Positions 5,742-23,012 of a DNA stretch of 64,000 bases are shown piece by piece. The notes beneath the pieces are model-generated. The model did not search any database, was not told where the DNA came from, and saw nothing but the letters and a program-made list of their open reading frames with translations. This DNA comes from a virus. How positions within the stretch are numbered: the stretch's first letter is position 1; each line of letters starts with the position of its first letter. The translations under genes and the position numbers were made by a program. Location: IMG/VR virus record IMGVR_UViG_3300036770_007547, positions 62,001 through 126,000 of that record, one strand, 5' to 3'.

Positions 5742-6520
5742 TATTTCCTCTCTATGTCATCTTCTTGGCAGTCATCGCCGTACTGTATTTCGACTATGCG
5801 CAATTCTTGGGCAGTCTCGTTGCAGAGGCGGTGCCATTGATTACGAGAGATATGTAGATGCTGGAACTCACTGTAATGCCCGAGATGCTCGATGTCTGTG
5901 CTCTTGTCATCAATGGTATAAACCGATGCTTCACCTTTGCTCACAAACCAGAATTCAGATCGGTTGCTGTGTCGCTGCATGCTGAGACATGTTCCGGGCT
6001 CGACTGTGAGTTCTTTGACCTTGACTTGTGGGCCATCTTCGTGCAGCACACGATAATAGCCCCAGGGCCGGTTTGTCTTGGGTGCTTTCCACTCTTCTAG
6101 TATCCAGCTCGAAGAGTTCTTTTTGTCCTCGCCGCCAACACCGAACTTGAAATCGATGTTTGGGTCCTGTATCGACATCTCGGGGATGTTGTCAGAGGTG
6201 CGATCCCCGCCATTGGCAAAGATGATGCGATTTTGTGGGTAACTGGCCCGCACCATCTCGATGGCCCGGCGTGCCGATCCATCGCTGTCATCGAAGTCGA
6301 TGACGAAATCCACGCCTGTGATGTGTTTGAGTATGTTGCCACGCTCTCTCAAGGGCATGAAAGCACGACCTTTCTTGCGTTCCAACCAAGCATCGCTGTT
6401 GACACCCACTACCAAGATATCGCCCATGGCTTTGGCTGCTTGGAGATAACTGATGTGACCGCTGTGTATGGGGTCAAATCCCCCGGTGACCAATACTACG
6501 ACTTTGTCTTTTTCGTACAT
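5741..6520 (-). CDS. Bifunctional nucleotidyltransferase + mannose-6-phosphate isomerase-like cupin
   Basis: The start at 6520 gives a 259-aa protein beginning MYEKDKVVVLVTGGFD; an upstream in-frame start would add 24 residues overlapping the previous gene. GGFDPIHSGH at residues 13-22 is the HxGH motif of cytidylyl/adenylyltransferases (TagD, HldE domain II). From about residue 145, KTNRPWGYYRVL and a run with MQRHSNRSEFWFV match the type II mannose-6-phosphate isomerase cupin that follows GDP-mannose pyrophosphorylases. The likely role is making or epimerising an activated sugar. The cupin metal histidines HSNRxE are visible. Joining these two domains is unusual. Confidence 0.85.
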   Translation of the reverse strand: MYEKDKVVVLVTGGFDPIHSGHISYLQAAKAMGDILVVGVNSDAWLERKKGRAFMPLRERGNILKHITGVDFVIDFDDSDGSARRAIEMVRASYPQNRIIFANGGDRTSDNIPEMSIQDPNIDFKFGVGGEDKKNSSSWILEEWKAPKTNRPWGYYRVLHEDGPQVKVKELTVEPGTCLSMQRHSNRSEFWFVSKGEASVYTIDDKSTDIEHLGHYSEFQHLHISRNQWHRLCNETAQELRIVEIQYGDDCQEDDIERK

Positions 6521-6522
6521 TG

Positions 6523-8184
6523 TTATTGTTCCTGTTCCTGAAGACGAGAATCTCGCAGCACCCGGGGCCACCAATGCATGAGGTGTTCCCAAGGCAATCC
6601 TGCTTCAATCTCGTCGCGCCGCCACTGTGAATAGCCAAGATTGGCCAACCATTGATCGCGTGGTATATTTAAATTGGGTCGTTCGATGTCTAAAATATTG
6701 TTCTGGCTCACAGGCCAGGCCATTGCGCTCTGATGCAAACAGTAGGTGGGCAATCCATAACAAGCCGATTCAGTGAGGCTGTTGCTGTTTCCTCCCACCA
6801 CTGCCCAGGCTGTATCAAAGTCGCGATACAAACTGTCACCGCCAGATACCCAATTGTCGTCGATGGCGCAACTGTGATCGCTGACCCGCACATCTTTGAT
6901 GGTTTGTATGGCCGATTCGATTATGGGCAACTGCTGCGGCAGCCGGCTGGGATGAAGTCGTATGCGTATGGGACGATTGGTTCGATGCCGTATCATCTTC
7001 AAGGCAGTGAGAACCATGTTTTCGTAACTGCCCCACTTGTTTATGAGCGGGACCATGCTGCTGTCTCGCGGTCTTTGCATCATGAACAACACATCGTCAC
7101 CGCGTGGCTGCCAGGGGTGTATCTCGATGTTCTGTTCTTTTTGTATGCGATGCCATCGATCCGCGGGACTGTCCTGACGGAAATGTATGCCATCGTGATA
7201 GAAATAACTGAACCAACTCCAACGATAGTAGACTTGATCTGATTCGGGACGTGCTTGATTGAAACGGAACGTGGGACTTTCTACCACTATCCAAGGTCGT
7301 CGGCTCTGCGTGATATAATTGTAGCAGTCTCGGTAGCGTTTGGTTCTTTTGTTGTCGGTGTTGTTGTGTATGATCCACAAGTCAGGCAAAGGTTGGTCGC
7401 GTATGTCTTCCAAGTTGGCTTCTTGGATGTTGGTGAATTCAGGCAAAGGCAGTCCTTGCCACCAAGGACCCACCAGAGCCACGGCACGCAGTTCGGGCCT
7501 CACAGTGGCCTCACGCCGGCGAGCCAACACTGTGGCCTGCTTGACCTGTGAGTCGTAGATCTGCAGCATGTTGTCTTTGTTTTTCTGTCGACCTTTCAGT
7601 GTCAGGAATACCCCGGTTCCCTTGCCGATGGCCACCCATTCACCGATGTTTGATATGGGTCGTATATCAAACTCTGGGGCCAATTGTCGCAATACCATTT
7701 GATCGTGTCCGTAGATCCACTGGTCTATGGGAGTATCCAAGAGCCGCTGTCTCAGCACTTTCTTGAAGTCACTGTTGCTGCCAAAGGTCACCGCTCCGGC
7801 CAACCAGTTTTGCTGTTTGTCATGCCACAACATGTGCGGATGGGCAGCGATGCTTTCAAATTCTTCCGGGGTAAATGACCTTGTACACACTGTGTCTATG
7901 TCCAGACTCATCACCAGCTGATCATCATCAAACAGCTCGCTGGCCACCAAGAACCTCAAGGCTTGATAGTAGGCAGCACGATTGTCGTCGTGCAATCGAG
8001 GTGCCTTTACATAGTGGTATCTTGCTCCGGGTACTGGATCCACAGCACCACCCGACACCACCACAGTGATGGACAGCCAGTTGTTGTGTGCCTGTAGGCT
8101 GGTGATGAGATTGGCTGCCCATTCATCATGATATACGGGATCGCAGGCTACCAGTATGTTGTATCGATTTTTGATGTCATTCAC
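6523..8184 (-). CDS. Fusion: GT-A glycosyltransferase + capsule-like domain (copy 5)
   Basis: The 553-aa protein has an N-terminal GT-A-like half (YNILVACDPVYHDEWAANL, then MSLDIDTVC at 92-100 as DxD, and WIYGHDQMVL near 165) and a C-terminal capsule-like half with NRPIRIRLHPSRL at about 405-417 (HP kept), VGGNSNSLTESACYGLPTY near 462-480 and PRDQWLANL...EIEAGLPWEHL. It parallels the fusion at 4092-5741 but keeps the HP motif. Its ATG overlaps the stop of the upstream methyltransferase (ATGA). It is probably soluble and acts on surface glycan precursors. Confidence 0.8.
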   Translation of the reverse strand: MNDIKNRYNILVACDPVYHDEWAANLITSLQAHNNWLSITVVVSGGAVDPVPGARYHYVKAPRLHDDNRAAYYQALRFLVASELFDDDQLVMSLDIDTVCTRSFTPEEFESIAAHPHMLWHDKQQNWLAGAVTFGSNSDFKKVLRQRLLDTPIDQWIYGHDQMVLRQLAPEFDIRPISNIGEWVAIGKGTGVFLTLKGRQKNKDNMLQIYDSQVKQATVLARRREATVRPELRAVALVGPWWQGLPLPEFTNIQEANLEDIRDQPLPDLWIIHNNTDNKRTKRYRDCYNYITQSRRPWIVVESPTFRFNQARPESDQVYYRWSWFSYFYHDGIHFRQDSPADRWHRIQKEQNIEIHPWQPRGDDVLFMMQRPRDSSMVPLINKWGSYENMVLTALKMIRHRTNRPIRIRLHPSRLPQQLPIIESAIQTIKDVRVSDHSCAIDDNWVSGGDSLYRDFDTAWAVVGGNSNSLTESACYGLPTYCLHQSAMAWPVSQNNILDIERPNLNIPRDQWLANLGYSQWRRDEIEAGLPWEHLMHWWPRVLRDSRLQEQEQ

Positions 8185-10901: not shown

Positions 10902-11957
10902 TTATTGTTGTTCAGTTTCTTCTTCTTTGTTGGTGGTGGCCGGTTCCTGGAAATCGCGCATGACTTTGTCCAAACAGCCATCCTCGTTGGATTCCCATCC
11001 TTTGCGAAAGTATTTGATGATCTCACCATCTGAGGTCACAAACATCAGCTTGTTGCCATCCTTTTTCAACATGCCTTTCTTTTCAGCAAGATCCACCAAG
11101 CCTGAATAGGGATTCATGCCGGTCTCGTAAGGGATCTTGACCTGCACGCCTTCAAATGGTTTGGCATAGCGTGTTTTCATGACCTTACAAGCCGATCTGA
11201 TGCCCATGACATCGGAGATCTTGTTGCCATCTTCGTCCTCTTTGAGCTTGAGCTTGCGCATGGCTACCACGATGCTTGATGCATAGATAAAGCCCTGGCC
11301 GCCCGAGATCTTGTCATCGGGGTCGAACATGTCTTGGCTGGCATAGGTATGGTTGGTACAAACCATGCCTACTCCATATGCGCCAAACATATTTACACAA
11401 TTTCGCACCAAAGCTGTGAGGCTCTTGGCCTTGCGACCCAGATCACCCTTCATGTCACCGCTCTCAAATTGGTTCACGTCCGTGGGTGTCAGCAACATGC
11501 CCAAGCTGTCGATCACAAACAACACCTTGGGTCGATCTTCTGCGGCCAGGGACTTGTAGTCGCTCATGAACGTGGAGATGGTCTTGGCTACATCATCCAC
11601 CATGGCCATGCTGAGTTTGAGCAGCTTGCCTTCGTCGGTGCTCACTCCTAGAGCATGCAACCATGCTTCGTCGAGAGCATTTTCTGTGTCCACCAACACC
11701 ACGAAGATGCCCTGTTCCTGAGCATTCTTGATGATGTTTCCGCTGCAGATATAGCTCTTGCCTGCACCCGACTCGCCGGCGAACACAGTGACCTTGCCCA
11801 GTGGGATGCCACGATTGAAGTCACCCGAGATCAGGTAGTTGAGTGCGTAGTTGCCGGTGCTGATCCAGTCAGTGGGATCATTGAAGCCGATGCTGAGACC
11901 ATCAATACTTTTGGTGATCTCTTTGCGGAATTTGCTTACATCAAACGGTTTAGCCAT
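10902..11957 (-). CDS. uvsX: UvsX RecA-like recombinase
   Basis: The 351-aa protein is a RecA-family strand-exchange ATPase: Walker A GESGAGKS at residues 61-68, Walker B VLFVIDSLGM near 145-154, and the KSIDGLSIGFNDPTDWISTG N-terminus typical of phage UvsX. It coats single-stranded DNA with help from UvsY and gp32 and drives recombination-dependent replication. The C-terminus is acidic (TNKEEETEQQ). AAGAGG stands 9 bases before the ATG. A near-consensus sigma70 promoter lies 40-70 bases upstream, so this is the head of an operon running through uvsY into the glycan genes. Confidence 0.97.
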   Translation of the reverse strand: MAKPFDVSKFRKEITKSIDGLSIGFNDPTDWISTGNYALNYLISGDFNRGIPLGKVTVFAGESGAGKSYICSGNIIKNAQEQGIFVVLVDTENALDEAWLHALGVSTDEGKLLKLSMAMVDDVAKTISTFMSDYKSLAAEDRPKVLFVIDSLGMLLTPTDVNQFESGDMKGDLGRKAKSLTALVRNCVNMFGAYGVGMVCTNHTYASQDMFDPDDKISGGQGFIYASSIVVAMRKLKLKEDEDGNKISDVMGIRSACKVMKTRYAKPFEGVQVKIPYETGMNPYSGLVDLAEKKGMLKKDGNKLMFVTSDGEIIKYFRKGWESNEDGCLDKVMRDFQEPATTNKEEETEQQ

Positions 11958-11999: not shown

Positions 12000-12028
12000 A
12001 GTATACTGCATTTATTCCCAGCTGTCAA
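12000..12028 (-). promoter_or_regulatory. Strong sigma70-type promoter for uvsX
   Basis: Read on the minus strand, TTGACA (12028-12023), a 17-base spacer and TATACT (12005-12000) give a consensus -35 and five of six -10 bases. The predicted start near 11993 leaves a leader of about 36 bases before the uvsX ATG. The -35 lies inside the end of the upstream gene. Confidence 0.85.
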
Positions 12029-13211
12029 TGCCCAACGGATATCTAGGTCGATAGCCAAAAACTTCACAGCATTCGCGCTGTATGTGATCGGGCAAGCTCG
12101 AAAATTCTTGTTCGTTGTCGCAATCTGGCCAACTGGCATCTCGGACGCGATAGTAAAATTCCCACCATTTTTTGCGCCTGAGATACAAGGGTACCAATCT
12201 TTTGGCCGGAGTCGATGTGTCCAATTCGCTGTGTACCTGTTGTATCACTTGCCAATCTCGTTGCATCCAATACTGCAATCTCTGATAGTTGTATTCCACA
12301 TCCTCCCGGACGCGATCGGCTATCACATGCATGTTCTCCAACAACCAAGCTGTGCATTGTACCACAGCATCCAGGCGCTGTTCTAGGTCAGGAATCATGT
12401 CATAGGTCTGTCGGGGCAGATATTCCTCGAAGGTGCGGAATCCGCGTCTTCGCAGATAATCCAGGATTCCGGGACTGCTACCTATCACCAAAAATGGTTG
12501 GCGATTGGCCATGGTCTGCCAGGTTTTCTCTGTCACGATGCCGCGTGTGGATTCATTGGTCTCGCACACGATCCTAAAGGATGTGTCTCGGTACAACCGC
12601 CAATCGAACCAATCACCGTCGCGATGCAGATTCAGCTCAGAATCAAGATCAGCAAAAGCACCATCGGGATCGCGCACATGATTGGCCACGAATTTCTTGT
12701 ATTCGCGATCTGTGAGTTCGGGAATAAACTCACGGGCCTGGGCCAGCTGATCCGGATAACCGGGCAAGCTCCATGTGGCACGATCCAACAACGATGCCTG
12801 TTGCAATTTCCACAACAGTCTCATGCGACTGGCATGGTTGGCTTTGCCCAACAACACCAAGAAACGTCCGGTATGGGCGTTCCAGCTGGGATTGAACTTG
12901 ACCATTCGCCATTCTTCGAGATGCAGGCGCAAAATGTGTAGATCAAAATCCACATAACGTACCTGTTTTCCCAGCAGATGCTTGAGCTCGGCATGGTAAT
13001 CAAACCCGTCCTGCAACAGCCAGATCGCTGAACGATCCGTGTCATACACTTTTACCATGTTCACGATCTCGACCAATGCATGTGGTGTCAGGTACTCGAG
13101 GCTCCAGAGAAGACCGCGACGATTTCTTGGTTTGAGCCGGTACCACTCTTGTATCTTCAACGGATGCGTGCCCAACAAGTGCATCTGATAGGGATAGTAT
13201 GCATCACTCAT
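12012..13211 (-). CDS. Putative GT10-like glycosyltransferase
   Basis: The 399-aa protein carries GIVTEKTWQTMANRQPFLV and SPGILDYLRRRGFRTFEEY around residues 225-265. A TEK motif followed by hydrophobic residues and a glycine-rich turn recalls the nucleotide-sugar end of GT10 fucosyltransferases, and similar genes are common in marine phages. The N-terminal 200 residues are not recognised. The 325-aa gene upstream is a divergent paralogue. The two genes overlap by 8 bases. The stop codon lies inside the uvsX promoter spacer. Confidence 0.6.
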   Translation of the reverse strand: MSDAYYPYQMHLLGTHPLKIQEWYRLKPRNRRGLLWSLEYLTPHALVEIVNMVKVYDTDRSAIWLLQDGFDYHAELKHLLGKQVRYVDFDLHILRLHLEEWRMVKFNPSWNAHTGRFLVLLGKANHASRMRLLWKLQQASLLDRATWSLPGYPDQLAQAREFIPELTDREYKKFVANHVRDPDGAFADLDSELNLHRDGDWFDWRLYRDTSFRIVCETNESTRGIVTEKTWQTMANRQPFLVIGSSPGILDYLRRRGFRTFEEYLPRQTYDMIPDLEQRLDAVVQCTAWLLENMHVIADRVREDVEYNYQRLQYWMQRDWQVIQQVHSELDTSTPAKRLVPLYLRRKKWWEFYYRVRDASWPDCDNEQEFSSLPDHIQRECCEVFGYRPRYPLGIDSWE

Positions 13212-14181
13212 GGTACTGATACCTCAAAGTCATGTGATGTTCGAGGTCCCCGCTGTAAAACCAGTCATAGTTGTGTTCGATGTTGTCAAGCTCGATTTGA
13301 TAGAGATCTCTCCAGTCCGCGGAATCCAAGTTGGAAAATCTAGACAGCATGTCCAACAGCAAAACCAGGCGCTTGACTGGATTGGGCTCGAGATCGAAAC
13401 TGTAGTCAAAAACTCCGCGATAGAGCCGGAATCCCCAATAGCGTTCGAGATAATGATGCCAACCGGGTTGAGCATAGGCCACAAACAATCCACGAGTGGA
13501 GATGCTGTGGAGGAATTTTTCAGTGATGAATGGCTCGTGCGTGGTAGACATGCTCTCGCTGACCACATGCACGAAACTGGTGGTCAAGGCCGATTCCAAC
13601 ACTTGTGCATTGTGCTCATGGCGTCCGCGATCATAGTTCATGGAATTCTGGACTGAAAAAAACTCGGGACTGTTTTTCCCAATGAAAAATTTGCGCCAGT
13701 ATCGATCATCGCTGCCAGTGAAATCTTGTATGTGCCCGTCCACGATGGCAGAGTCAAATGCGAAATTTTTGGTCACTCTCAAGGCATCGTACCAGCCGCG
13801 TCGATGCAAGGCTGCGGTGAGCAACCGACGTCCCACGTGCGGACTACCATTGAAACTGCAAAGAAAAGCCTGGAACTTGTGATCTGGATGCACGCGATAA
13901 CTCAACATGCGTTGCCAGAGGTATTCACGTATGATGTTTACCGGATAAGAAAGGCTGATGTGTGGATAGTTGCACTGTATGTGCGGCAAGGGAAGATATG
14001 GTGTAGACACACAGAGCGTGCGTCCCCGGCGCTGTGCTTCGCCTTCGATGCGATCTAATATGAGATTTCTTCCTCGATGATCGATGCCATCGAGATGATC
14101 GCCCAGCAAAAAGACATCCGGCAGTTGGGCTAGATCTGCCGGAGTCTTGGTTTCATTCCAGGGAGGTTGTATGCAAAGCAT
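13204..14181 (-). CDS. Putative GT10-like glycosyltransferase, paralogue of the next gene
   Basis: The 325-aa protein has HVVSESMSTTHEPFITEKFL then STRGLFVAYAQPGWHHYLER, the same TEK plus turn arrangement as the 399-aa neighbour, and a C-terminal LYQIELDNIEHNYDWFYS like its DVEYNYQRLQYW. It probably transfers a sugar to a surface glycan. The ATG overlaps the symporter stop (TGATG), so it is translationally coupled to it. The donor sugar is unknown. Confidence 0.6.
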   Translation of the reverse strand: MLCIQPPWNETKTPADLAQLPDVFLLGDHLDGIDHRGRNLILDRIEGEAQRRGRTLCVSTPYLPLPHIQCNYPHISLSYPVNIIREYLWQRMLSYRVHPDHKFQAFLCSFNGSPHVGRRLLTAALHRRGWYDALRVTKNFAFDSAIVDGHIQDFTGSDDRYWRKFFIGKNSPEFFSVQNSMNYDRGRHEHNAQVLESALTTSFVHVVSESMSTTHEPFITEKFLHSISTRGLFVAYAQPGWHHYLERYWGFRLYRGVFDYSFDLEPNPVKRLVLLLDMLSRFSNLDSADWRDLYQIELDNIEHNYDWFYSGDLEHHMTLRYQYHE

Positions 14182-15554
14182 CAGGCAAGTTTGGGAACAC
14201 TCCGACGATCTAGAATGATGCCCAGGGCCGGCAGTGCTATCATGATGGCACTAAACATCCAACGCTCCAATGGCAGCGCATTGAAGTGTCCAAGCACTCC
14301 CACGACTATGGCGGCCAACACACCCCAAAGCATGAATCGTACTTGTGCCTGATGACGACTGAACACTCCATACAACACCGGCGCGATGGTCAGCAATCGT
14401 GCTGTACCAAACGTGATAAAAATGATCCAGATGTCGATCTTGAACAGAGCGATCACCGTGGTCACTAGAGCGATAAACACCATGGCGATGCGGCTCACCT
14501 TCACAGCATCACGGTCCGGCATGAAGTCGTTGCTGATGATGCTACCAAAACTGTTGTAGGCTGTGTCAATGGTAGATGCCGAGGCTGCCAGGAATGCCAG
14601 GGTGATCAAGACCAGCCCCCATTGCCCGAGCAAGAACTCACTGACCATGGTACCAGCCAGCTTGGGATCTTTGACTTCGAGTCCAAGCGGAACTGCCGAG
14701 CCTGCCATGATGCCAAATCCGATCAGGATCACTAGATAGATGGGGATGCTCAACAAAAAAGCCCGACGTATCTTGGAAACATCATTGGCGGCAAAGATCC
14801 TTTGGTAAAATCCGTTGTCGTTGAGCGAACTGCCTACCAAGATAAAAATGGTCATGATGCCGATGTTGGTCACTGTGGCTGGGTCCCACAGACTCACATT
14901 GGTCTTGGTCTGCACTGCGTCCCACACTGTGCCAAACCCACCGGCTGCTGCCACGGCAGCACCGCCGAGCCCCACTGCGATCAACAGCATCACACCAGTC
15001 TGCAACATGTCGGTCCTGATACTGCTTTTGAGTCCGCCCCACAGCGAGTACAACAACACGATGGCGGCCACACCAATCACCACCGCTTCGTAGGTGATCG
15101 AACTCTTGCCCACGTAAGTGGCGATACCACCAAATGCTGTGAGATTGGCTACCACGGCATTGAGAACACCAAACAACATCACGGCCTGGAATATACGGGT
15201 GAGAGTGGTGCTGCCATAACGCTCTTGTATGAATCCACTCAGCGTGAACTGTCGATTGTTTTGAGCCAGGAGACTGCTTGACACAGCACTCATCATCAAC
15301 AACACTATCACCGTGGGCAAAATGAACCAGAAGAATCCAGCGAAACCTTTGGTAAACACAAAGGCGCTGACCATGACAAACGCGAACAAGTGTATCCAAG
15401 ATGCCACGATGCTGCTGCTGAGTTCGGTGACACCCACGTCGCGGTTGCTGAGTAAGTAGCCCACTTTGCTGTCTCGAAACTGGCTGCCGATGTTCCAGGA
15501 ACTCAACAGCATGAGTCCAGCAAACAAGGCCAGTGCTATCAGGAATGCATCCAT
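14181..15554 (-). CDS. Sodium:solute symporter (SSS family)
   Basis: The 457-aa protein is almost entirely hydrophobic with roughly 12-13 membrane segments. Family signatures visible are LYSLWGGLKSSIRTDMLQTG (about residues 165-185), QRIFAANDVSKIRRAF (about 248-263) and AASASTIDTAYNSFGSII (about 325-342). These match the LeuT-fold Na+/solute symporters (PutP, urea and monocarboxylate carriers). Substrate is not deducible; the acid ligase upstream makes a carboxylate plausible. AGGAG precedes the ATG. It is a full-length inner-membrane carrier in a phage genome, which is very unusual. Codon use looks like its neighbours by eye. Confidence 0.9.
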   Translation of the reverse strand: MDAFLIALALFAGLMLLSSWNIGSQFRDSKVGYLLSNRDVGVTELSSSIVASWIHLFAFVMVSAFVFTKGFAGFFWFILPTVIVLLMMSAVSSSLLAQNNRQFTLSGFIQERYGSTTLTRIFQAVMLFGVLNAVVANLTAFGGIATYVGKSSITYEAVVIGVAAIVLLYSLWGGLKSSIRTDMLQTGVMLLIAVGLGGAAVAAAGGFGTVWDAVQTKTNVSLWDPATVTNIGIMTIFILVGSSLNDNGFYQRIFAANDVSKIRRAFLLSIPIYLVILIGFGIMAGSAVPLGLEVKDPKLAGTMVSEFLLGQWGLVLITLAFLAASASTIDTAYNSFGSIISNDFMPDRDAVKVSRIAMVFIALVTTVIALFKIDIWIIFITFGTARLLTIAPVLYGVFSRHQAQVRFMLWGVLAAIVVGVLGHFNALPLERWMFSAIMIALPALGIILDRRSVPKLA

Positions 15555-15578
15555 TTGTAACTCCTATGTTATATCACT

Positions 15579-16556
15579 TCATTTAGCCGCGATGCGTGGC
15601 TTGGCCCGAAATTCATCCACAGTGGCCAGATAACTACCACACTCACAGCGACCTTTGTAGCTGTAAGAGATATAGTCACCGAGATCGTTGTTGAATATGG
15701 GCAACGTCCAGATATTGGTGAAAAACGAGCGACCATCACGATAAGTCATGTGCGTGAAATCTTCGTTGAAATGCTGGTGTCCGTGGCGGCAGGTCCACAT
15801 GATCTGCCCGATTTCACTGCTGCCATATATGTCATAGATATCGTCCACGCCAAACGCATCCATGAGTCGTTGTTTGTCGGTGATATGACCACCGGTGCTG
15901 ATGATGGCACGGGGTTGTCTTGTAAAGTATTTGCGTGGTTCCATGTCGGCCAATCGATGCAGTTTGCTGGGCGTGCTCATGAACACTGTGACACCGTGAT
16001 CGCGTATGCGCTCTAGTTTGCGTTTCAAACTGGAACTGCGCTCGATGATGACTCGGGCACCGATCACCAGTTGTGCTGCTTCCTCCATGACACGGAATCC
16101 GGCTTGCATGGTTCCCAGGGCCGTGGTCAAAAACACATCATCGTGATCCATGCCCAAGGCCAGCATACCACGTGCTGTGCAGGCCAGGGTTTTCCACCAA
16201 TCGTCTTGGCGATAAGGGAACAATTTGACCGGACCAGTGCTGCCGCTAGAGGTCACTAGATATTCACCAGACTCTAACACTCCGTATGGAGGATCCGACA
16301 ATTGATTGTTGAGCCAGCGATCGGTGGTGGTTTCGGGAACCACACCCAGGTGTTCTGGACTCGTGACCGTGTGATCTCCAAACCAGAAATCACGAGTCAC
16401 CGAGTCCAACTTGTCCAGCGTGTGCATCCAGTTTTGGTCGCGTCGTTGCAACACATGTTCTCGACTCACTAGATGCGCTTGTGAGTCCAACAAAAGTCTC
16501 TGTCGTACCAGCCTGGATAGATCAGAGTATGCGATGTTCGAGGCTGGTTCGATCAT
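15579..16556 (-). CDS. ANL-family acid ligase, PaaK/LuxE-like, lacking C-terminal lid
   Basis: I choose ATG 16556 (325 aa, MIEPASNIAYSDLSRL) because GGAGG stands 4 bases upstream. LVTSSGSTGPVKLF is the ATP-phosphate loop and YGSSEIGQ the A5 motif of adenylate-forming enzymes. The tail NDLGDYISY then CECGSYLATV matches the end of the large domain in phenylacetate-CoA ligases. The protein stops there, so the small C-terminal domain with the second-half catalytic lysine is missing. It may only adenylate an acid, or hand it to a partner. It overlaps the acyltransferase gene upstream by 35 bases. Confidence 0.8.
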   Translation of the reverse strand: MIEPASNIAYSDLSRLVRQRLLLDSQAHLVSREHVLQRRDQNWMHTLDKLDSVTRDFWFGDHTVTSPEHLGVVPETTTDRWLNNQLSDPPYGVLESGEYLVTSSGSTGPVKLFPYRQDDWWKTLACTARGMLALGMDHDDVFLTTALGTMQAGFRVMEEAAQLVIGARVIIERSSSLKRKLERIRDHGVTVFMSTPSKLHRLADMEPRKYFTRQPRAIISTGGHITDKQRLMDAFGVDDIYDIYGSSEIGQIMWTCRHGHQHFNEDFTHMTYRDGRSFFTNIWTLPIFNNDLGDYISYSYKGRCECGSYLATVDEFRAKPRIAAK

Positions 16557-17163
16557 CGATCCTCCGTCGGCCATTGTAGGTACCAGACTCTGAGAGGCTG
16601 TCATATATGGTAGATCCTGATAAGATATTGGTGTAATTGGGTATGATGGTCGTTCCAGTGCGATTCATGATGGAACTGCGCAAACCTATCACTGTGCCTT
16701 GACCGATGCGCGTGTTATTTAAGAAACAATAGGCGCTGACATGGCAAAAGTTTTCCAAAGTCACATAGTGACCAAACTGTATGAATGATGACAGTATCAC
16801 ATGATCCCCGATGTCGATCACTCCACACAATAGATCCACCCAGGAACTCACCAACGTACCACGACCAATTTTCACATCGGGATTGATGGTGTGACTGGTG
16901 TCATGTATGAGACTGAACCAATCCACTCCCTGCGAATCTAGATATTCCACTGCGCTGATCTTGAGAGCGATGTCGCTTCCAAGCATGATGTATTGATATT
17001 GGCTCAGCCAATCTTTGTTTTGTTGCTGTAGTTGTTCCACAGTGTATGAAACGCACGGCCTTGTGGTAGACAACAGTTTCATCATGTGTCTACTCAGCAA
17101 AGCCGTGCCAACAAAGCACAATGGCTTCCCGGTATCATATAGAACCGTGATACCGGGTGTCAT
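16522..17163 (-). CDS. Left-handed beta-helix acyltransferase (PglD/NeuD-like)
   Basis: The 213-aa protein starts with a short nucleotide-binding-like segment (CFVGTALLSRHMMKLL) and then hexapeptide-type turns: INPDVKIGRGTLVSSWVDL, IDIGDHVILSSFIQFGHYV, NTRIGQGTVIGLRSSI. FGHYVTLENFCHVS carries a histidine where PglD has its catalytic base. It ends SGTYNGRRR, like the YxGxPA endings of this family. Family members add acetyl or other acyl groups to aminosugars. Its ATG is separated from the gp32 stop by one base. A dedicated acid ligase gene follows. Confidence 0.8.
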   Translation of the reverse strand: MTPGITVLYDTGKPLCFVGTALLSRHMMKLLSTTRPCVSYTVEQLQQQNKDWLSQYQYIMLGSDIALKISAVEYLDSQGVDWFSLIHDTSHTINPDVKIGRGTLVSSWVDLLCGVIDIGDHVILSSFIQFGHYVTLENFCHVSAYCFLNNTRIGQGTVIGLRSSIMNRTGTTIIPNYTNILSGSTIYDSLSESGTYNGRRRIDDRTSLEHRIL

Positions 17164-17164
17164 G

Positions 17165-18154
17165 TCAGCCTTTGTTTTGTCTTGCTCGGATCATGGCCAG
17201 GATGTCCTCGGCTTTGGCATTGGAGGCCTTGGCCGGTTCCGACACCACAGGTGCTGTGGCCACCGGTGTGTCTTCGTCCTCGTCAAACGAGCTAGACACT
17301 GGGGCTGCCTTGGCTGGTGCTTGATGCACATCACCATGTCCATCCACCGAGGGCTTGGACGACGGAGCCGACATTCCAGCCGGACGGAAATACTGTCCCC
17401 AGCGTTCCATGTCAAAGGGCTGGCCGTCCACCGAAGCTTCGAACATCTCTTTCATGACCTTGAGCTCTACATCAGTGGGCTTCTTGGGCAAGAACTCGTT
17501 GAGATCAAACAAGCCGTATTTCTCAAGGGCTGCTTGCTCGTCTTCGGTGAGAGCGCTTTCTTTGCGGGCCCACTTGGATGTGGAATAGTCTGCGTAACCA
17601 CCTTTTGATGTCTTGGTGATACGGAAATCCAGACCACGCAAGAGATCGGTGGGCAGTTCTTCCAACTCGGGATCCATCAGTGCGGATTTGATTGTTTGGA
17701 AGATCTGGGGACCGATGATGAATCTGCGGATGGGATTTTCCGGAGTCTTGTCATCGCTGAGCGGATTTTCGCGAACAAAGCCCTGGAAAATGTAGCTACG
17801 CTTCTTCCAGTATTTGCGACCCATGTCTTCGAGGCTCTTGTCTTTGAACCAAGTGCGCACTTCGGCCAGGATCGGGCAGCTTTCGCCCCACATTTCCACA
17901 CAAGGTACTTGTACTTGTACCTGCTTGGAGTCCATTTCGCTTTTGACGCCGTTGAACGGCAGCTTGATCATGGCTCGCTCGACCCAGAAAAATGTGTTCT
18001 TTGAGTTGCCATCGGGCAGGAACCGAACCACTGCGCTTGCGCCTTCGTCGATGTTCCAATGGGGATAGATTGCATTGTCGCCGCCGGTGCTTTGACCGCC
18101 TTTGCCTGACTCTGCGGCTGCGAGTCGTGCGCGGATTTCTGCTAGAGATGCCAT
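17165..18154 (-). CDS. gp32: Single-stranded DNA-binding protein gp32
   Basis: Starting at ATG 18154 (AGGAAA upstream) the protein is 329 aa, close to T4 gp32 (301 aa). MASLAEIRARLAAAES is the basic N-terminal cooperativity segment. The core has WNIDEGASAVVRFLPDG, PFNGVKSEMDSKQV and CVEMWGESCP, a cysteine pair where T4 has its zinc subdomain. The C-terminus is rich in Pro, Ala and acidic residues (SSFDEDED) and ends in a short amphipathic helix. It covers single-stranded DNA in replication and recombination and works with UvsX and UvsY. Its promoter region carries both sigma70 and late-type elements. Confidence 0.95.
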   Translation of the reverse strand: MASLAEIRARLAAAESGKGGQSTGGDNAIYPHWNIDEGASAVVRFLPDGNSKNTFFWVERAMIKLPFNGVKSEMDSKQVQVQVPCVEMWGESCPILAEVRTWFKDKSLEDMGRKYWKKRSYIFQGFVRENPLSDDKTPENPIRRFIIGPQIFQTIKSALMDPELEELPTDLLRGLDFRITKTSKGGYADYSTSKWARKESALTEDEQAALEKYGLFDLNEFLPKKPTDVELKVMKEMFEASVDGQPFDMERWGQYFRPAGMSAPSSKPSVDGHGDVHQAPAKAAPVSSSFDEDEDTPVATAPVVSEPAKASNAKAEDILAMIRARQNKG

Positions 18155-18220
18155 AATAGAAGTTTCCTTTCGTTTGCCTAAGTTTAGCCTAGTATGTGCC
18201 TTCAAACGCATACTGCACTG

Positions 18221-18250
18221 AGTATAGCGTGCTTTTATTTAGTCCGTCAA
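18221..18250 (-). promoter_or_regulatory. Sigma70-type promoter of gp32
   Basis: Minus strand TTGACG (18250-18245), 18-base spacer, TATACT (18226-18221). The leader to the ATG is about 60 bases. The spacer itself holds CTAAATA (18242-18236), a late-promoter-like element, so early and late polymerase forms could both start here. Confidence 0.75.
18236..18242 (-). promoter_or_regulatory. Late-type promoter motif CTAAATA upstream of gp32
   Basis: CTAAATA on the minus strand lies in the spacer of the sigma70 promoter and in the loop of a 6-bp inverted repeat, GTGCTT (18254-18249) with AAGCAC (18234-18229). Confidence 0.4.
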
Positions 18251-18263
18251 GCACTTTCGTTGA

Positions 18264-18290
18264 AATTTGGGCGACCTGGCCGCCCAAATT
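18264..18290 (-). terminator. Hairpin terminator after the MFS transporter gene
   Basis: A perfect 10-bp stem (AATTTGGGCG with CGCCCAAATT) and a 7-base loop lie 8 bases after the MFS stop and just before the gp32 promoter. It has an A/T-rich stem base but no long T run after it, so termination strength is uncertain. Confidence 0.6.
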
Positions 18291-18297
18291 CCCGGTA

Positions 18298-19557
18298 TCA
18301 TGTGCTAGACACAGTGTTTGATCGCGGTATCAAAAAGAAAGTGGACACAAATGCTATGATGCTCAACACCGTGAACACCCAGCCCAACACCGTGATGTCA
18401 TTGTTGTAGCTGGACAATATTTCGGTGTTCATGAGTGGCACCAGCCCTCCGCCCACCATGCCGCCCAGATTCATGCTGACACCGCTGGCAAACTGGCGTA
18501 TGCGAGTGGGATAGATTTCTGTGAGCAGAGCCGAAGCCGGTGCCCAGGACCCACCACCGATCAGTATGGCTCCCAGCAAAAATGGGCCCAGTACCCAGCC
18601 CTCGGCTACCCAACCAAAGATTGGTACACTGAGGAAAATCCCGGCCAGGGTCACGATCTGATACACACGTAGACTGCCCAAGGGGCTGGGACCCAAGCGA
18701 TCGGCCAACCAACCAGCAAACAGCACAAACGCCAGATACACGAAAGTTAGATAAAACCATGTGTCCATGATGGCAGCACGGCTGGCGCCCAGATGTTGTA
18801 CCATCCAGGCCACAGAAAAGAAGATGATGCCGTGATAAAACGCTGCGCCCAATTGATAGACACCAATGGCCACCAGCACTCGTTTCCAATGCTGTGCCAA
18901 CAGTTCGCGCATGCCCGGACCTTCTTCTTTCTGTGCCTGCTGGAAAGCCGGAGTTTCCAGCACCTTGAGCCTAGCATACACACCTATGGCCAAGAGAACC
19001 ACGCTGAAAAGGAACGGGATACGCCATCCACCATCCAGCAAAAAGTTGTCACCGAAACTGGTGAGTGCGGCAAACACCGCGGTGCCCATGATAGTGGCCA
19101 AGGGCAGCCCCGAGGCCAACAATCCGCTGAACAGCCCGCGCCGTTGGCTGTCGAGATTGTATTCGATCATGATGGTGCTGGTGGCAGCCCATTCGCCGCC
19201 CAGTGCCATGGTCTGTATGATCCGCAACACAAACAATCCAACCGCAGCCCACACACCGATCTGTTCAAACGTGGGCATCAGTCCCACCAATGTAGTGGTG
19301 ATACCGGTCATGATCAAGGTCAGCACCAGAGTGGGTTTTCTACCCAGTCGATCACCTAGGTAGCCAAACACTGCGCTGCCCACGGGCCTCGCAAAAAATC
19401 CCACCCCATACACCAATGCAGCGATCCAAAATCCCAGGTCAGGGAAAAATAGATTTTTGAACACCAATGCAGTGGCGATACCAAATATAACAAAATCATA
19501 CCATACTATGGTTGCGCCCAAGACGCAACTCAGCATGGCGTGTTTCCTAACATCCAT
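18298..19557 (-). CDS. MFS transporter, metabolite:H+ symporter (MHS) type
   Basis: The 419-aa protein has about 12 membrane segments. WYDFVIFGIATALVFKNLFF near residue 19, ARPVGSAVFGYLGDRLGRK near 56-74 (the loop 2-3 signature), and MALGGEWAATSTIMIEY near 117-133 are typical of the MHS group (ProP, ShiA, alpha-ketoglutarate or citrate carriers). It would import an organic acid or similar small molecule with protons. AGGAGA precedes the ATG. It is third in a set with an acid ligase and an acyltransferase. An intact MHS carrier is very unusual in a phage. Confidence 0.9.
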   Translation of the reverse strand: MDVRKHAMLSCVLGATIVWYDFVIFGIATALVFKNLFFPDLGFWIAALVYGVGFFARPVGSAVFGYLGDRLGRKPTLVLTLIMTGITTTLVGLMPTFEQIGVWAAVGLFVLRIIQTMALGGEWAATSTIMIEYNLDSQRRGLFSGLLASGLPLATIMGTAVFAALTSFGDNFLLDGGWRIPFLFSVVLLAIGVYARLKVLETPAFQQAQKEEGPGMRELLAQHWKRVLVAIGVYQLGAAFYHGIIFFSVAWMVQHLGASRAAIMDTWFYLTFVYLAFVLFAGWLADRLGPSPLGSLRVYQIVTLAGIFLSVPIFGWVAEGWVLGPFLLGAILIGGGSWAPASALLTEIYPTRIRQFASGVSMNLGGMVGGGLVPLMNTEILSSYNNDITVLGWVFTVLSIIAFVSTFFLIPRSNTVSST

Positions 19558-19566
19558 GAGCTTCTC

Positions 19567-20163
19567 CTAGATTTGTGTTGCTCCGGGCACTGCCCGATTT
19601 CCATAATAAGTGCCGGGACTGACCACATCTTTGTGAACCAGGCTGCCCATCATGAATTTGACATCATCGGTCACGTTCACGTAACTCGATATCGTGGACG
19701 AATAGCCCACGAATACATTATGGCCGATGCTGCTGCGGCCTCCCACGGTGACATTGGGACTGAAATACACGTTCCTACCAGTGTGTGTCTCATGCGTGAT
19801 GCTGGAATGCGTGCTGATCACATTGAACTCGCCCAAACGCACACGGAAACACACATAGACTTGACCATAGATCCAAGTACCGCGCTGTAAATTTTCCGGC
19901 TCTTCCACCCAGGCTGCTGGATGGACATAAATGGGCCAGTTCACCCGATCGATGTCATTGGATTCCAAGAACCGTTTTCGTCGATCAATGTTTCCGAACG
20001 CCAACACACAACTTCCGCCCTGGGGCACACGATGCAGTTCGTCATATTCGATGTGATGTACTGCGGTGACTGTGGATTCACGCTCTAATAGGAAACTGTA
20101 TTCTTGTGCCAGTATTCCCGAGCCTACCACCCAAAACTCGCCCAATTCATGTTGATACAACAT
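19567..20163 (-). CDS. PglD/NeuD-family sugar acyltransferase
   Basis: The 198-aa protein has an N-terminal nucleotide-binding-like part (FWVVGSGILAQEYSFLL) and a C-terminal left-handed beta-helix with THSSITHETHTGRNVYFSP, VGGRSSIGHNVFVGYSSTI and a closing SPGTYYGNRAVP. This is the full PglD/NeuD plan, about 200 aa. HSSITHETHTG holds histidines at the catalytic position. It probably acylates an amino or hydroxyl group of a sugar nucleotide. It overlaps the ligase gene upstream by 17 bases, so the two are very likely made together. Confidence 0.85.
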   Translation of the reverse strand: MLYQHELGEFWVVGSGILAQEYSFLLERESTVTAVHHIEYDELHRVPQGGSCVLAFGNIDRRKRFLESNDIDRVNWPIYVHPAAWVEEPENLQRGTWIYGQVYVCFRVRLGEFNVISTHSSITHETHTGRNVYFSPNVTVGGRSSIGHNVFVGYSSTISSYVNVTDDVKFMMGSLVHKDVVSPGTYYGNRAVPGATQI

Positions 20164-21568
20164 ATTTTTTCAAAACATCAAAAGATCTAGATTTTTTGTT
20201 GGTATCGGTGATTGGGATGTCGACCACCGAGTATATAGAATCAATGCCGCTGACTTGACTTATGTTGGATACATCGCCTAGAACAAAGGCTGCTAGACCT
20301 TGGTCCACTCGTATCACCACGCTGTCGGTGACTCCGGGCTGCTGATTGATGCGATTTTCCAACTCCAGGCAACTGATCCATCGTCCCTGGTGTTCCATCA
20401 ACTGCTCGCGGCGGCCAGCATAGTAATAATATCCATCGCTGTCCATCCACATGTAGTCACCGGTACGGTATCCCCCATCAACGAAACTGCGTTGTGTGCG
20501 CACAGCATCTCCGACATAGCCCACAGCGATGTTGCTGTGATACACCACTAGCTCACCAATCTCATCAACATCGCAGACACTGCCATCGTCGCGTGTCAAC
20601 AAGCACTTCGCCCCGGGTCCCATGCGTCCCAGACTGCCGCGGCGAAAATCGCCGGGACTGTTGCTGAGCACTGCCCAGGTGCGTATCTCTCCGGCGCCAT
20701 AAGTGTTCAAAACGTCCCGGCCAAATTTTTCCCGGAACGCCGATTCAGTCATGGGCAACAGGGCTTCGCCGGTGCTGTACACTGCCTGTAGCCCGGGATG
20801 GAAATCTCCGATCTTGTGTCTCACCAAGAAGTCAATGATCTTTGGGCTCACCATGGCATTGGTCACGCCCTGTTCATCGATGATGTCGTGTATGCGACGG
20901 AAATCTCTGGGAGTGTCAAGCACTATCAAAGTGTATCCCAGACTAAGGTGTCCCAGTATCGAAATGATCATACCAAACGAACTGGCCAGTTTGACTGATG
21001 TCATGACTCGGCTGGTGTGATCCAGAGCCAATGGATTGGGCTTGGAAAATGTTTGTTCAAGTCCGTGATGTCGATGCGCTATCAACTTGGGATCCGAAGT
21101 GGTGCCCGAACTGGTGATCACTGCCCAAACATCCTGTTCGGTGTAATCGTAGACCAGGTCAATGTCAAGTTCCGTTTGGTCATTGATGTCGTCCATGAGC
21201 ACTGTTGGTAGTCCCGGCGGTATCTCTAGATCATCGAGCATGTTTTTCTGGGTGATTATCCAGCGGCTGGCAGCACGCTGGCTGATGCTGACCACATAGT
21301 CGCGTCCAGCATTGGGCATGACCACCACTGGCACAGCACCGATCACTGTCAGGGCATGGAAAACCTCCAACCATTTGACACCGTCATCAGCGATGAATGT
21401 CACAGCATCGCGGCAGCGTATGCCACGATTCCAGAGATAGTGCGCTGTGCTGAGACAGGACGATTTAAATTGCGCCCAATCACGGACTTGACCATCATAC
21501 ACGATGGCATCATGCTTGGGTCCGGCAGCCCAACGAGTCAGACTGTTGTAGACGATGTTGTTTTTCAT
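20147..21568 (-). CDS. AMP-dependent acid ligase (ANL family, full length)
   Basis: The 473-aa protein has the core motifs in order: ITSSGTTSDPKLIAHRH (phosphate loop, about residues 149-165), NTYGAGEIRTW (A5, near 290), YRTGDYMWMDSDGYYYYAGR (A7-A8, near 363-382) and a C-terminal ITDTNKKSRSFDVLKK with lysines at the A10 position. This is the plan of acyl-CoA, benzoate-CoA and acyl-ACP synthetases. It would turn a carboxylic acid into an acyl-adenylate and then a thioester. No carrier protein gene is seen, so CoA is the simpler acceptor. No clear Shine-Dalgarno precedes the ATG. Confidence 0.85.
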   Translation of the reverse strand: MKNNIVYNSLTRWAAGPKHDAIVYDGQVRDWAQFKSSCLSTAHYLWNRGIRCRDAVTFIADDGVKWLEVFHALTVIGAVPVVVMPNAGRDYVVSISQRAASRWIITQKNMLDDLEIPPGLPTVLMDDINDQTELDIDLVYDYTEQDVWAVITSSGTTSDPKLIAHRHHGLEQTFSKPNPLALDHTSRVMTSVKLASSFGMIISILGHLSLGYTLIVLDTPRDFRRIHDIIDEQGVTNAMVSPKIIDFLVRHKIGDFHPGLQAVYSTGEALLPMTESAFREKFGRDVLNTYGAGEIRTWAVLSNSPGDFRRGSLGRMGPGAKCLLTRDDGSVCDVDEIGELVVYHSNIAVGYVGDAVRTQRSFVDGGYRTGDYMWMDSDGYYYYAGRREQLMEHQGRWISCLELENRINQQPGVTDSVVIRVDQGLAAFVLGDVSNISQVSGIDSIYSVVDIPITDTNKKSRSFDVLKKYVVST

Positions 21569-21644: not shown

Positions 21645-23012
21645 CTATTTTTTTGCTAGTTCTAGGAGTCTTGCTAGATGCCGCTCGATGCTTTCGCTGC
21701 TCATGTTGGATGGTCGTGTCATCATGACACCGTCGGTGTCGAGATTTTCATCGGTGGGTTGCTGATTGTCGGGAATGTCAATGTCTATGCCTAGTTCGGA
21801 TAGCCGATCCTGGATCAACGGGCGTGCGTCTGCGTCTGCGTCTTTTTTTGCCAACTCACCGAGGCGATCAAACAACTCATCGTCGCCCAATATCCCGTCT
21901 AGGATGGAAGTGACATTGGATGCATCTGGGCCCACTGGCAAAGGTTGGGCCAGGAGTTCTTCCAATTGTTTCCGGGATTGTGGAGTGTCTGGTAACGCCC
22001 ATGTGCCTTCCAGCATGCGTTGGGTCCAAGAATCAAACTCGTTGACTTCTTCCATGTAGTCGCTGTCACTGACAGCCTGGCCAGACAGTGTGCCAGCCAC
22101 TCTCGCCAACACCGGCAATGCTTCTTCGATGCGATGATCGATGTTTCTCTCTACAAACATGTTGCGTATGTTTTCTACTTCGGGCTGGGTGGAATCGACT
22201 GCGGATGGATCAAATTTTTCTCGTTCTTCGCGATAACCTCTTTGGCCCAGCATTTTCCTGGTCTTGGTTTTCAAGGCCTGATAATGACGTATGGCTGCTT
22301 CACGCACTCGATTGGCTTTTTCATCGTAGTCGCGCTTGTCACTGGCACGCAAAAATCTAGACAGCACCGACAACTCGTTCACCATTTCATTGATGTGATT
22401 GCCGAACAGATCATAGGGGGTACCACCTTCGCTGACGTGTCGGGCCAACAGTTTACCATGGGTGAGATTGCGGCTGGGCACACGAAAACGCTCGCCTTCG
22501 GCTGTTTCAATGAACAAACTTTCGATGGCACGATATCTAGCTTCGCCCTCGCCGAGGTCACGAGAATGCTTGATCATGAGTCGTGTCTGCTTGGGCTGGT
22601 CGCTGTAGCTGATGTTTTTCTTCTTGCCATAATAACCTTCGAACAAACCTTCACGTATGGCGGCCATGCCCTTCATGGTATATTTCAAACGATTGAGATT
22701 GTTGACCCGGAAGTTCAAGAGATTGCGTGTAGAAAACTTTTTGATCTGTTCCAGGAACGCATACCATTGCTGTTTGTCATCGCCTTCCATGCTCTTGCCG
22801 AGATTGTCACCAAAATAAAGCTCGACACTGTTGTTGTTGTCAAACAAGATCACCACTGTGCCGTAGTTCTTGGCCGGAGTTTTCCAATCAAATGACAGCA
22901 ATTCAGCTTCACTGGGATCTTCCACGGGTTTGCCCGAGCTGTCTAGAGTCTCGATGTCTAGATCTCGTGTCACCAATAGATCAAAGAGTTCTTTTTGCGG
23001 CGTGTTTTCCAT
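21645..23012 (-). CDS. Conserved marine T4-like phage protein (455 aa)
   Basis: I recognise this as a protein conserved in cyanophages and related myoviruses: SFDWKTPAKNYGTVVILFDN, EGLFEGYYGKKKNISYSDQP, SLFIETAEGERFRVP and RHVSEGGTPYD. Its function has not been established; it lies next to the large terminase and is probably virion- or packaging-related. The C-terminal 120 residues are acidic and low complexity, ending in a helix (SIERHLARLLELAKK). There is no Shine-Dalgarno; ATAAATA lies 6 bases before the ATG. Confidence 0.8.
   Translation of the reverse strand: MENTPQKELFDLLVTRDLDIETLDSSGKPVEDPSEAELLSFDWKTPAKNYGTVVILFDNNNSVELYFGDNLGKSMEGDDKQQWYAFLEQIKKFSTRNLLNFRVNNLNRLKYTMKGMAAIREGLFEGYYGKKKNISYSDQPKQTRLMIKHSRDLGEGEARYRAIESLFIETAEGERFRVPSRNLTHGKLLARHVSEGGTPYDLFGNHINEMVNELSVLSRFLRASDKRDYDEKANRVREAAIRHYQALKTKTRKMLGQRGYREEREKFDPSAVDSTQPEVENIRNMFVERNIDHRIEEALPVLARVAGTLSGQAVSDSDYMEEVNEFDSWTQRMLEGTWALPDTPQSRKQLEELLAQPLPVGPDASNVTSILDGILGDDELFDRLGELAKKDADADARPLIQDRLSELGIDIDIPDNQQPTDENLDTDGVMMTRPSNMSSESIERHLARLLELAKK

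Follow-up and report, generated by a model that had tools for sequence, protein, structure and literature searches.

Why should a large bacterial virus carry, on either side of its gp32 gene, two dissimilar sets of genes that each encode a carboxylic acid ligase, a sugar acyltransferase, and a membrane transporter? The question is raised by a 64,000-nucleotide stretch of DNA (the window), positions 62001-126000 of the 222,775-bp virus record IMGVR_UViG_3300036770_007547, which belongs to a T4-like virus of bacteria whose gp17 and gp32 have their nearest deposited relatives, at about 53% identity, in Pseudomonas phages of the Arenbergviridae, PA5oct and Paride among them. We consider it probable that each trio is an acyl-donor module in its own right, independent of the other, and serves glycan building directed by the phage. 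An earlier reading of the window from its letters alone (the original prediction) had recognized the trios; what it lacked is their apparent partner, a dedicated family of glycosyltransferases with a fixed place between gp32 and RecA, next to which the acyl module would be the part that is exchanged. The genes concerned are these:

21645..23012, minus strand: conserved virion structural protein (phrog_13484), the left border of set A
20147..21568, minus strand: ligA, full-length ANL (AMP-forming) carboxylic acid ligase, 473 amino acids, benzoate/anthranilate-coenzyme A (CoA)-ligase-like (Pfam AMP-binding, 1.4e-41)
19567..20163, minus strand: hexA, NeuD/PglD/VioB-type sugar N-acyltransferase, 198 amino acids (TIGR03570, NeuD_NnaD, 6e-29)
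18298..19557, minus strand: MHS-family metabolite:H+ symporter, 419 amino acids (TIGR00883, 3e-79)
17165..18211, minus strand: gp32 single-strand DNA-binding protein (phrog_1192, 3e-67), the backbone marker between the sets
16522..17163, minus strand: hexB, NeuD/PglD-like acyltransferase, 213 amino acids (TIGR03570, NeuD_NnaD, 5e-15)
15579..16604 (likely start 16574), minus strand: ligB, PaaK-like AMP-binding ligase, large domain only, 341 amino acids (Pfam, 2.5e-12)
14181..15554, minus strand: SSF sodium/solute symporter, 457 amino acids (PF00474, 3.6e-18, above cut-off)
13204..14181, minus strand: gtB1, predicted GT-B-fold glycosyltransferase (AlphaFold model), the constant partner of the acyl modules
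12012..13211, minus strand: gtB2, second glycosyltransferase-like protein with a TEK motif (homologues of 33-37% identity between gtB1 and RecA)
10902..11957, minus strand: RecA/UvsX recombinase, the right border of the cargo slot

All six open reading frames of the two sets lie on the minus strand where they had been placed, and the sets flank gp32. Pfam and NCBIfam profile matches confirm set A (18298-21568) as a full-length AMP-forming ligase, a NeuD/PglD-like acyltransferase, and an MHS-type symporter, and set B (14181-17163) as a NeuD-like acyltransferase, a large-domain-only PaaK-like ligase, and a sodium/solute symporter. The overlapping gene ends originally described hold for one junction in each set (17 nucleotides for ligA/hexA; for hexB/ligB 83 nucleotides from the first ATG, or 53 from the start that matches relatives), whereas the other junction is gapped, by 9 nucleotides between hexA and the MHS gene and by 24 between ligB and the SSF gene. 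Nor does the picture of a three-gene set ending in its transporter apply to set B, which continues unbroken into gtB1, overlapping it by 1 nucleotide, and into gtB2, both of them left out of the original prediction. A chimeric contig, which had been raised as a concern for this interval, is ruled out by conserved flanks and ordinary codon usage: the backbone of gp17, structural gene, gp32, and RecA is kept in dozens of relatives, and the codon usage of the six set genes resembles that of their neighbors. Homologues of the structural protein stand in the equivalent place in 52 loci, and in most relatives the gene after gp32, or after the slot genes, is a RecA homologue of 75-96% identity. Given that in Paride UvsX comes directly after gp32, and that the gp32-RecA interval is empty in 20/66 complete gp32-sampled relatives, the sets occupy cargo slots on either side of gp32 and not a core region.

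The constant element of the slot is gtB1. Its AlphaFold model, built from 63 sequences, has a predicted local distance difference test (pLDDT) score of 93.6 and a predicted template modeling (pTM) score of 0.91; an earlier model from 8 sequences was poor (pLDDT 55.9). GT-B enzymes occupy ranks 1 (probability 0.95) and 3 (probability 0.96) and many lower ranks among its fold matches in the PDB, all of them weak (best E 5.6e-3), and the model suggests with moderate confidence that gtB1 is a glycosyltransferase. Within a T-E-K motif K222 is invariant and E221 is kept in at least 90% of the 63 sequences, residues that we take to recall the donor site of GT10 fucosyltransferases; gtB1 has no Pfam GT10 match. 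Its matches to viral proteins reach down to E 9e-12 and are mostly to uncharacterized proteins. The family occurs in 231 viral contigs; a pattern scan with the same alignment found it in none of 84,980 GTDB bacterial and archaeal genomes, and none of the 50,697 deposited phages has it. In every locus whose flank was retrieved, it follows gp32 and precedes RecA. Comparisons below refer to fetched stretches of viral records, designated by L-numbers (L091 is part of the genome in question itself); 80 gp32 relatives were fetched, and the gtB1 loci analyzed are the best 80 matches per scan out of the 231 contigs. Homologues of gtB2, which has no Pfam match, lie between gtB1 and RecA in L034, L101, L106, and L107. 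A WPDC tail motif supposed to be common to several slot families was found by pattern search in gtB2 only.

What varies is the gene content upstream of gtB1, which may be an ANL ligase and a NeuD-like acyltransferase with an SSS or TctC transporter, NeuD with a dioxygenase, a formyltransferase, or none of these. Among 52 non-redundant complete gtB1 loci, ANL with NeuD is present in 6/52, NeuD without ANL in 6/52 (five of these with an Asp/Asn hydroxylase or TauD), and a formyltransferase in 5/52, while a family of 392 amino acids without assigned function accompanies gtB1 in 10/52 and one of 276 amino acids alone in 5/52. Distant ANL and NeuD pairs precede gtB1 in L113/L114, L124, L141, and L150, and an ANL and TctC pair does so in L117; the TctC periplasmic receptor in L113/L114 and L117 has an N-terminal hydrophobic signal. 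Three unrelated kinds of putative carboxylate transporter (MHS, SSS, and TctC) therefore adjoin ligases. The formyltransferases, the combinations of NeuD with Asp/Asn hydroxylase or TauD, and a DegT-like fragment at the gtB1 locus L108 are fitting partners for N-acyl amino-sugar chemistry. Mapped onto a gtB1 tree of 55 rows, the upstream module has changed at least 27 times and the presence of ANL at least 7 times, and well-supported sister pairs, for example L158/L217 and L100/L112, carry differing modules. Since the gtB1 loci were fetched via gtB1 itself, the fair test of co-occurrence is the gp32-fetched set, in which all NeuD or formyltransferase loci (3/3) fall among the 8/80 with gtB1 (hypergeometric P 0.0007); under the same labels, NeuD or formyltransferase was found in 0/60 complete loci without gtB1. 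As for the two frequent gtB1 partners without assigned function (L016:2604-3782 and L017:12672-13502, about 390 and 276 amino acids), neither has a Pfam match above cut-off, and the 392-amino-acid family is 71-87% conserved between most members, far above the conservation of gtB1. Comparison of the uncharacterized slot proteins among themselves by hhalign gave weak links.

Set B belongs to this system by position. The order hexB-ligB-SSF-gtB1-gtB2, with other genes in places between the last two, recurs between gp32 and RecA in L034 and L101 at 36-44% identity, and the 53-nucleotide overlap of hexB and ligB is the same in the window, L034, and L101. Judged by this shared arrangement, set B is an inherited cassette. 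The original prediction had looked to related genomes for the same trio, and it is complete in L034, in L096 and L097 (both near-identical to L034), and in L101; L102 holds the later part of the cassette. The hexB orthologue at the equivalent place in L034 is 38% identical, the SSF orthologue in L034 and L101 44% identical, and the ligB orthologues there 40% identical and 331 amino acids long. The hexB match to TIGR03570 scores below the curated cut-off of 160.8 bits, as does that of hexA, and H132 is invariant across hexB, L034, L046, and hexA. ligB has a PaaK-like ligase as a PDB match (1.5e-5), and its large-domain-only form, comparable to the 331-position NF045666 model, is genuine and no truncation, being equally short in L034, L101, and a distant 319-amino-acid relative in L124; these short ligases conserve the core residues and a C-x-C-G motif and lack the C-terminal lysine domain. 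The SSF protein has 12 hydrophobic spans. When ligA or ligB was used singly to scan viral contigs there were no matches, and the ligB pair alignment matched 4 viral contigs. Between gtB1 and gtB2, L034 also carries (L034:6710-9428) a B12-binding radical SAM protein of 641 amino acids and a 270-amino-acid protein on the opposite strand, both absent in L101.

Set A lies across gp32, and its connection comes through L105, where the genes immediately before gtB1 encode homologues of ligA (42% identity) and hexA (34% identity), which places set A in the same system. The ligA homologue (L105:256-1738) is broken into two overlapping reading frames, through either a frameshift in sequencing or gene decay. 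The best PDB match of ligA is an anthranilate-CoA ligase (2.5e-25), and its best solved relatives, anthranilate- and benzoate-CoA ligases, give a hint, no more, of an aromatic or small acid as substrate. P-loop, core, and C-terminal residues (S154, G155, T157, K161, E294, D371, R386, K458) are invariant in 6 full-length phage ligases. hexA matches VioB (6e-12) and PglD (1e-4) in the PDB, its His aligning with the VioB His, and this His of the left-handed beta-helix (LbH) domain is kept in 5/6 phage hexA homologues. The MHS symporter, with at least 10 hydrophobic spans, also has MFS_1 and Sugar_tr matches above cut-off; relatives have no homologue of it at their gp32 loci. No equivalog model passed its cut-off for the MHS or SSS symporter, and carboxylates are the presumed substrates of both. 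As originally noted, the sets are not close copies; duplication of one into the other is ruled out by their different ligase subclasses and transporter families. Given that hexA and hexB fall on different branches of the acyltransferase tree, with moderate support, the two sets are probably separate acquisitions. The proposal of convergent assembly is fair for the two sets as a pair, but set B is an inherited cassette and the ligase/acyltransferase pair of set A also has relatives.

A source for the sugar may lie elsewhere in the same genome. At about 207.3-209.4 kb of the record, outside the window, a DegT aminotransferase (2e-63) adjoins an SDR protein (3e-48) of the dTDP-glucose-dehydratase/epimerase (nucleotide-sugar) kind; the nearest models of the DegT protein are PseC and dTDP-sugar transaminases, and its nearest structures inositol transaminase and DesV- and QdtB-like sugar transaminases. 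A third NeuD-like protein lies near 215 kb. No acyl carrier protein was found in the genome, so CoA is the most likely acyl carrier. DegT was found in 4/23 relatives searched. The gene content and order, the predicted fold, the gp32-RecA position, the exchange of modules around gtB1, and the co-occurrence are observed; from them we infer the following route, with all its substrates and its end point. During infection a symporter (SSS or MHS here, TctC-type in relatives) would make more of a small carboxylic acid available inside the cell. This acid would be activated by the AMP-forming ligase, most likely to a CoA thioester, and its acyl group passed by the NeuD/PglD-like acyltransferase to the amino group of an amino sugar linked to a nucleotide; SDR and DegT proteins of the phage itself could make that sugar. 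The glycan acceptor to which gtB1, possibly followed by gtB2, would then transfer the acylated product is most likely either a glycan of the host surface, where it would block competing phages, or a virion protein. The original interpretation thus stands in part: the sequence of acid import, activation, and sugar attachment is supported by its recurrence with a third transporter, TctC, and by the candidate amino-sugar genes, while DNA-base acylation has lost ground and the gtB1 partner had been missed.

Several observations weigh against this acyl-donor reading. No fold match of gtB1 in the PDB falls below E 0.001, and about 20/52 complete gtB1 loci have no recognizable partner. Three complete loci with ANL, NeuD, and gtB1 (L124, L141, L150) have no transporter; L141 further has Lys in its hexA homologue where His is expected; and one gp32 locus, L067, has ANL with neither NeuD nor gtB1. 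Set A, including its MHS carrier, is found only in this genome and lies across gp32 from gtB1, and it is unsure whether ligB, without the C-terminal catalytic-lysine domain, has full ligase activity. DegT is absent from several long gtB1-positive records, such as G006 (177 kb) and G009 (149 kb), which may be incomplete; the sugar may therefore often be supplied by the host, or no amino sugar be involved there. At L067:1874-3544 the ligase in question is a diverged AMP-binding protein of 473 amino acids, followed by a DUF6356 protein, the two standing alone between gp32 and RecA.

The transporterless loci and L067 also speak for a different account, in which the transporters and ligases are separate metabolic cargo that feeds host catabolism through acid uptake and CoA activation for energy, the acyltransferases being adjacent incidentally in a hot spot. 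TctC and MHS carriers are catabolic in bacteria, and the gp32-RecA slot also holds unrelated radical-SAM genes. Every other ANL-bearing slot has gtB1 and nearly always a NeuD-like gene adjoining the ligase, however, and set B keeps its gene order and 53-nucleotide overlap at 40% identity; genes for beta-oxidation or ring cleavage were not seen adjoining the sets, and we regard catabolic cargo as unlikely. A further account, that gtB1 and gtB2 put an acylated sugar on phage DNA as a shield against restriction or CRISPR, draws on the location between two replication genes, gp32 and RecA, on a carbamoyltransferase encoded in the same genome, and on the known glycosyltransferases of DNA-hypermodifying phages (cited in PMC12619734). 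Yet searches of the genome found neither PF00303 (the dCMP-hydroxymethylase/thymidylate-synthase family) nor PF00145 (cytosine methylase), so that the usual hydroxymethyl base for such a sugar is not made by known routes, a search for TET enzymes being uninformative with its control silent; moreover, many relatives, the cultured phage Paride among them, have an empty slot, and replication therefore does not need its genes. DNA modification, which the original prediction had offered as its alternative, now seems rather improbable. Least credible, with little probability left to it, is the production of a free small molecule such as an acylated amino sugar or glycosylated metabolite, for instance a signal or antibiotic. 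A ligase, an acyltransferase, and a glycosyltransferase are also the logic of glycosylated natural products, and jumbo cyanophages were proposed to make such metabolites (PMC7824862); here, though, there is no carrier protein, no scaffold-forming gene was recognized in the slot, and partners such as NeuD-family proteins and formyltransferases typically go with the sugars of surface polysaccharides.

The open-access literature yielded no description of a system so composed, in keeping with the original prediction. The pathways by which bacteria make N-acyl amino sugars for O-antigens and protein glycans (PglD, VioB, NeuD, PerB, and the formyltransferase variants) likewise join an SDR and a DegT protein to a NeuD-type acyltransferase or formyltransferase and a glycosyltransferase. 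In the phage, by contrast, the genes are scattered over the genome and come with a dedicated acid ligase and a presumed carboxylate transporter, the glycosyltransferase family is phage-only, and modules are swapped at one replication-gene junction. Polysaccharide clusters of jumbo phages, cyanophages, and pelagimyophages (PMC7824862, PMC7029224) share phage epimerases, cupins, nucleotidyltransferases, glycosyltransferases, and a proposed change of the host surface; the accessible portions of these papers describe no sets of ligase, NeuD acyltransferase, and transporter and no gp32-RecA site, and the pelagimyophage island, as far as presented in PMC7029224, sits at the tail-fiber region, unlike the gp32-RecA slot. 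Prophage serotype conversion and O-acetylation (NeuO, PMC3046976) resemble the present case in phage-encoded acyl modification of surface glycans and in the LbH fold, but depend on single O-acetyltransferases using host acetyl-CoA, whereas here the acyl donor seems to be imported and activated, and by a lytic-type phage.

If the acyl-donor reading is true, phages import and activate acids for new N-acyl sugars, going beyond the borrowing of host sugars, and the gp32-RecA pattern suggests a widespread, undescribed phage route to custom sugar coatings. A broader generalization, which we advance tentatively and hold at somewhat under even chances, is that a family of large lytic-type phages keeps a private gp32-RecA glycosyltransferase and rapidly swaps acyl-sugar donor enzymes, including those for the import and activation of unusual acids, so that every phage builds a chemically distinct glycan on virion or host as part of an arms race against receptors or defenses. 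A constant glycosyltransferase with interchangeable donor modules would also amount to a natural series from which the specificity of acyltransferases and ligases could be decoded. It would mark out a defined locus for asking what drives these phages to diversify their glycans, and would give a testable role to the gtB1 family, which is present in at least 231 viral contigs and no deposited phage.

Other genes of the slot and of the genome may be recorded briefly. In many relatives the gp32-RecA slot lacks gtB1 and holds a recurrent cassette (L049:2033-5232; also L018, L019, L054, L063, and L065) that encodes proteins of about 219 amino acids, 291 amino acids (weakly radical-SAM/HNH-like), 180 amino acids (NAD epimerase), and 384 amino acids (SPASM radical SAM). 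Within the window one further gene is of the nucleotide-sugar type:

5741..6592, minus strand: HldE-type adenylyltransferase fused to a mannose-phosphate-isomerase-type cupin (PF01467, 4e-13; PF01050, 9e-21; TIGR02199; TIGR01479 C-terminal part)

Around the DegT and SDR genes, L091:2-8355 (about 201-209.4 kb) also encodes the carbamoyltransferase and two glycosyltransferase-like proteins with the TEK motif (420 and 368 amino acids). ThyX follows at L091:8579-9262, and L091:15061-18643 carries a PBP_like_2 phosphate-binding-protein-like periplasmic protein, a DUF6071 protein, and a fatty acid desaturase.

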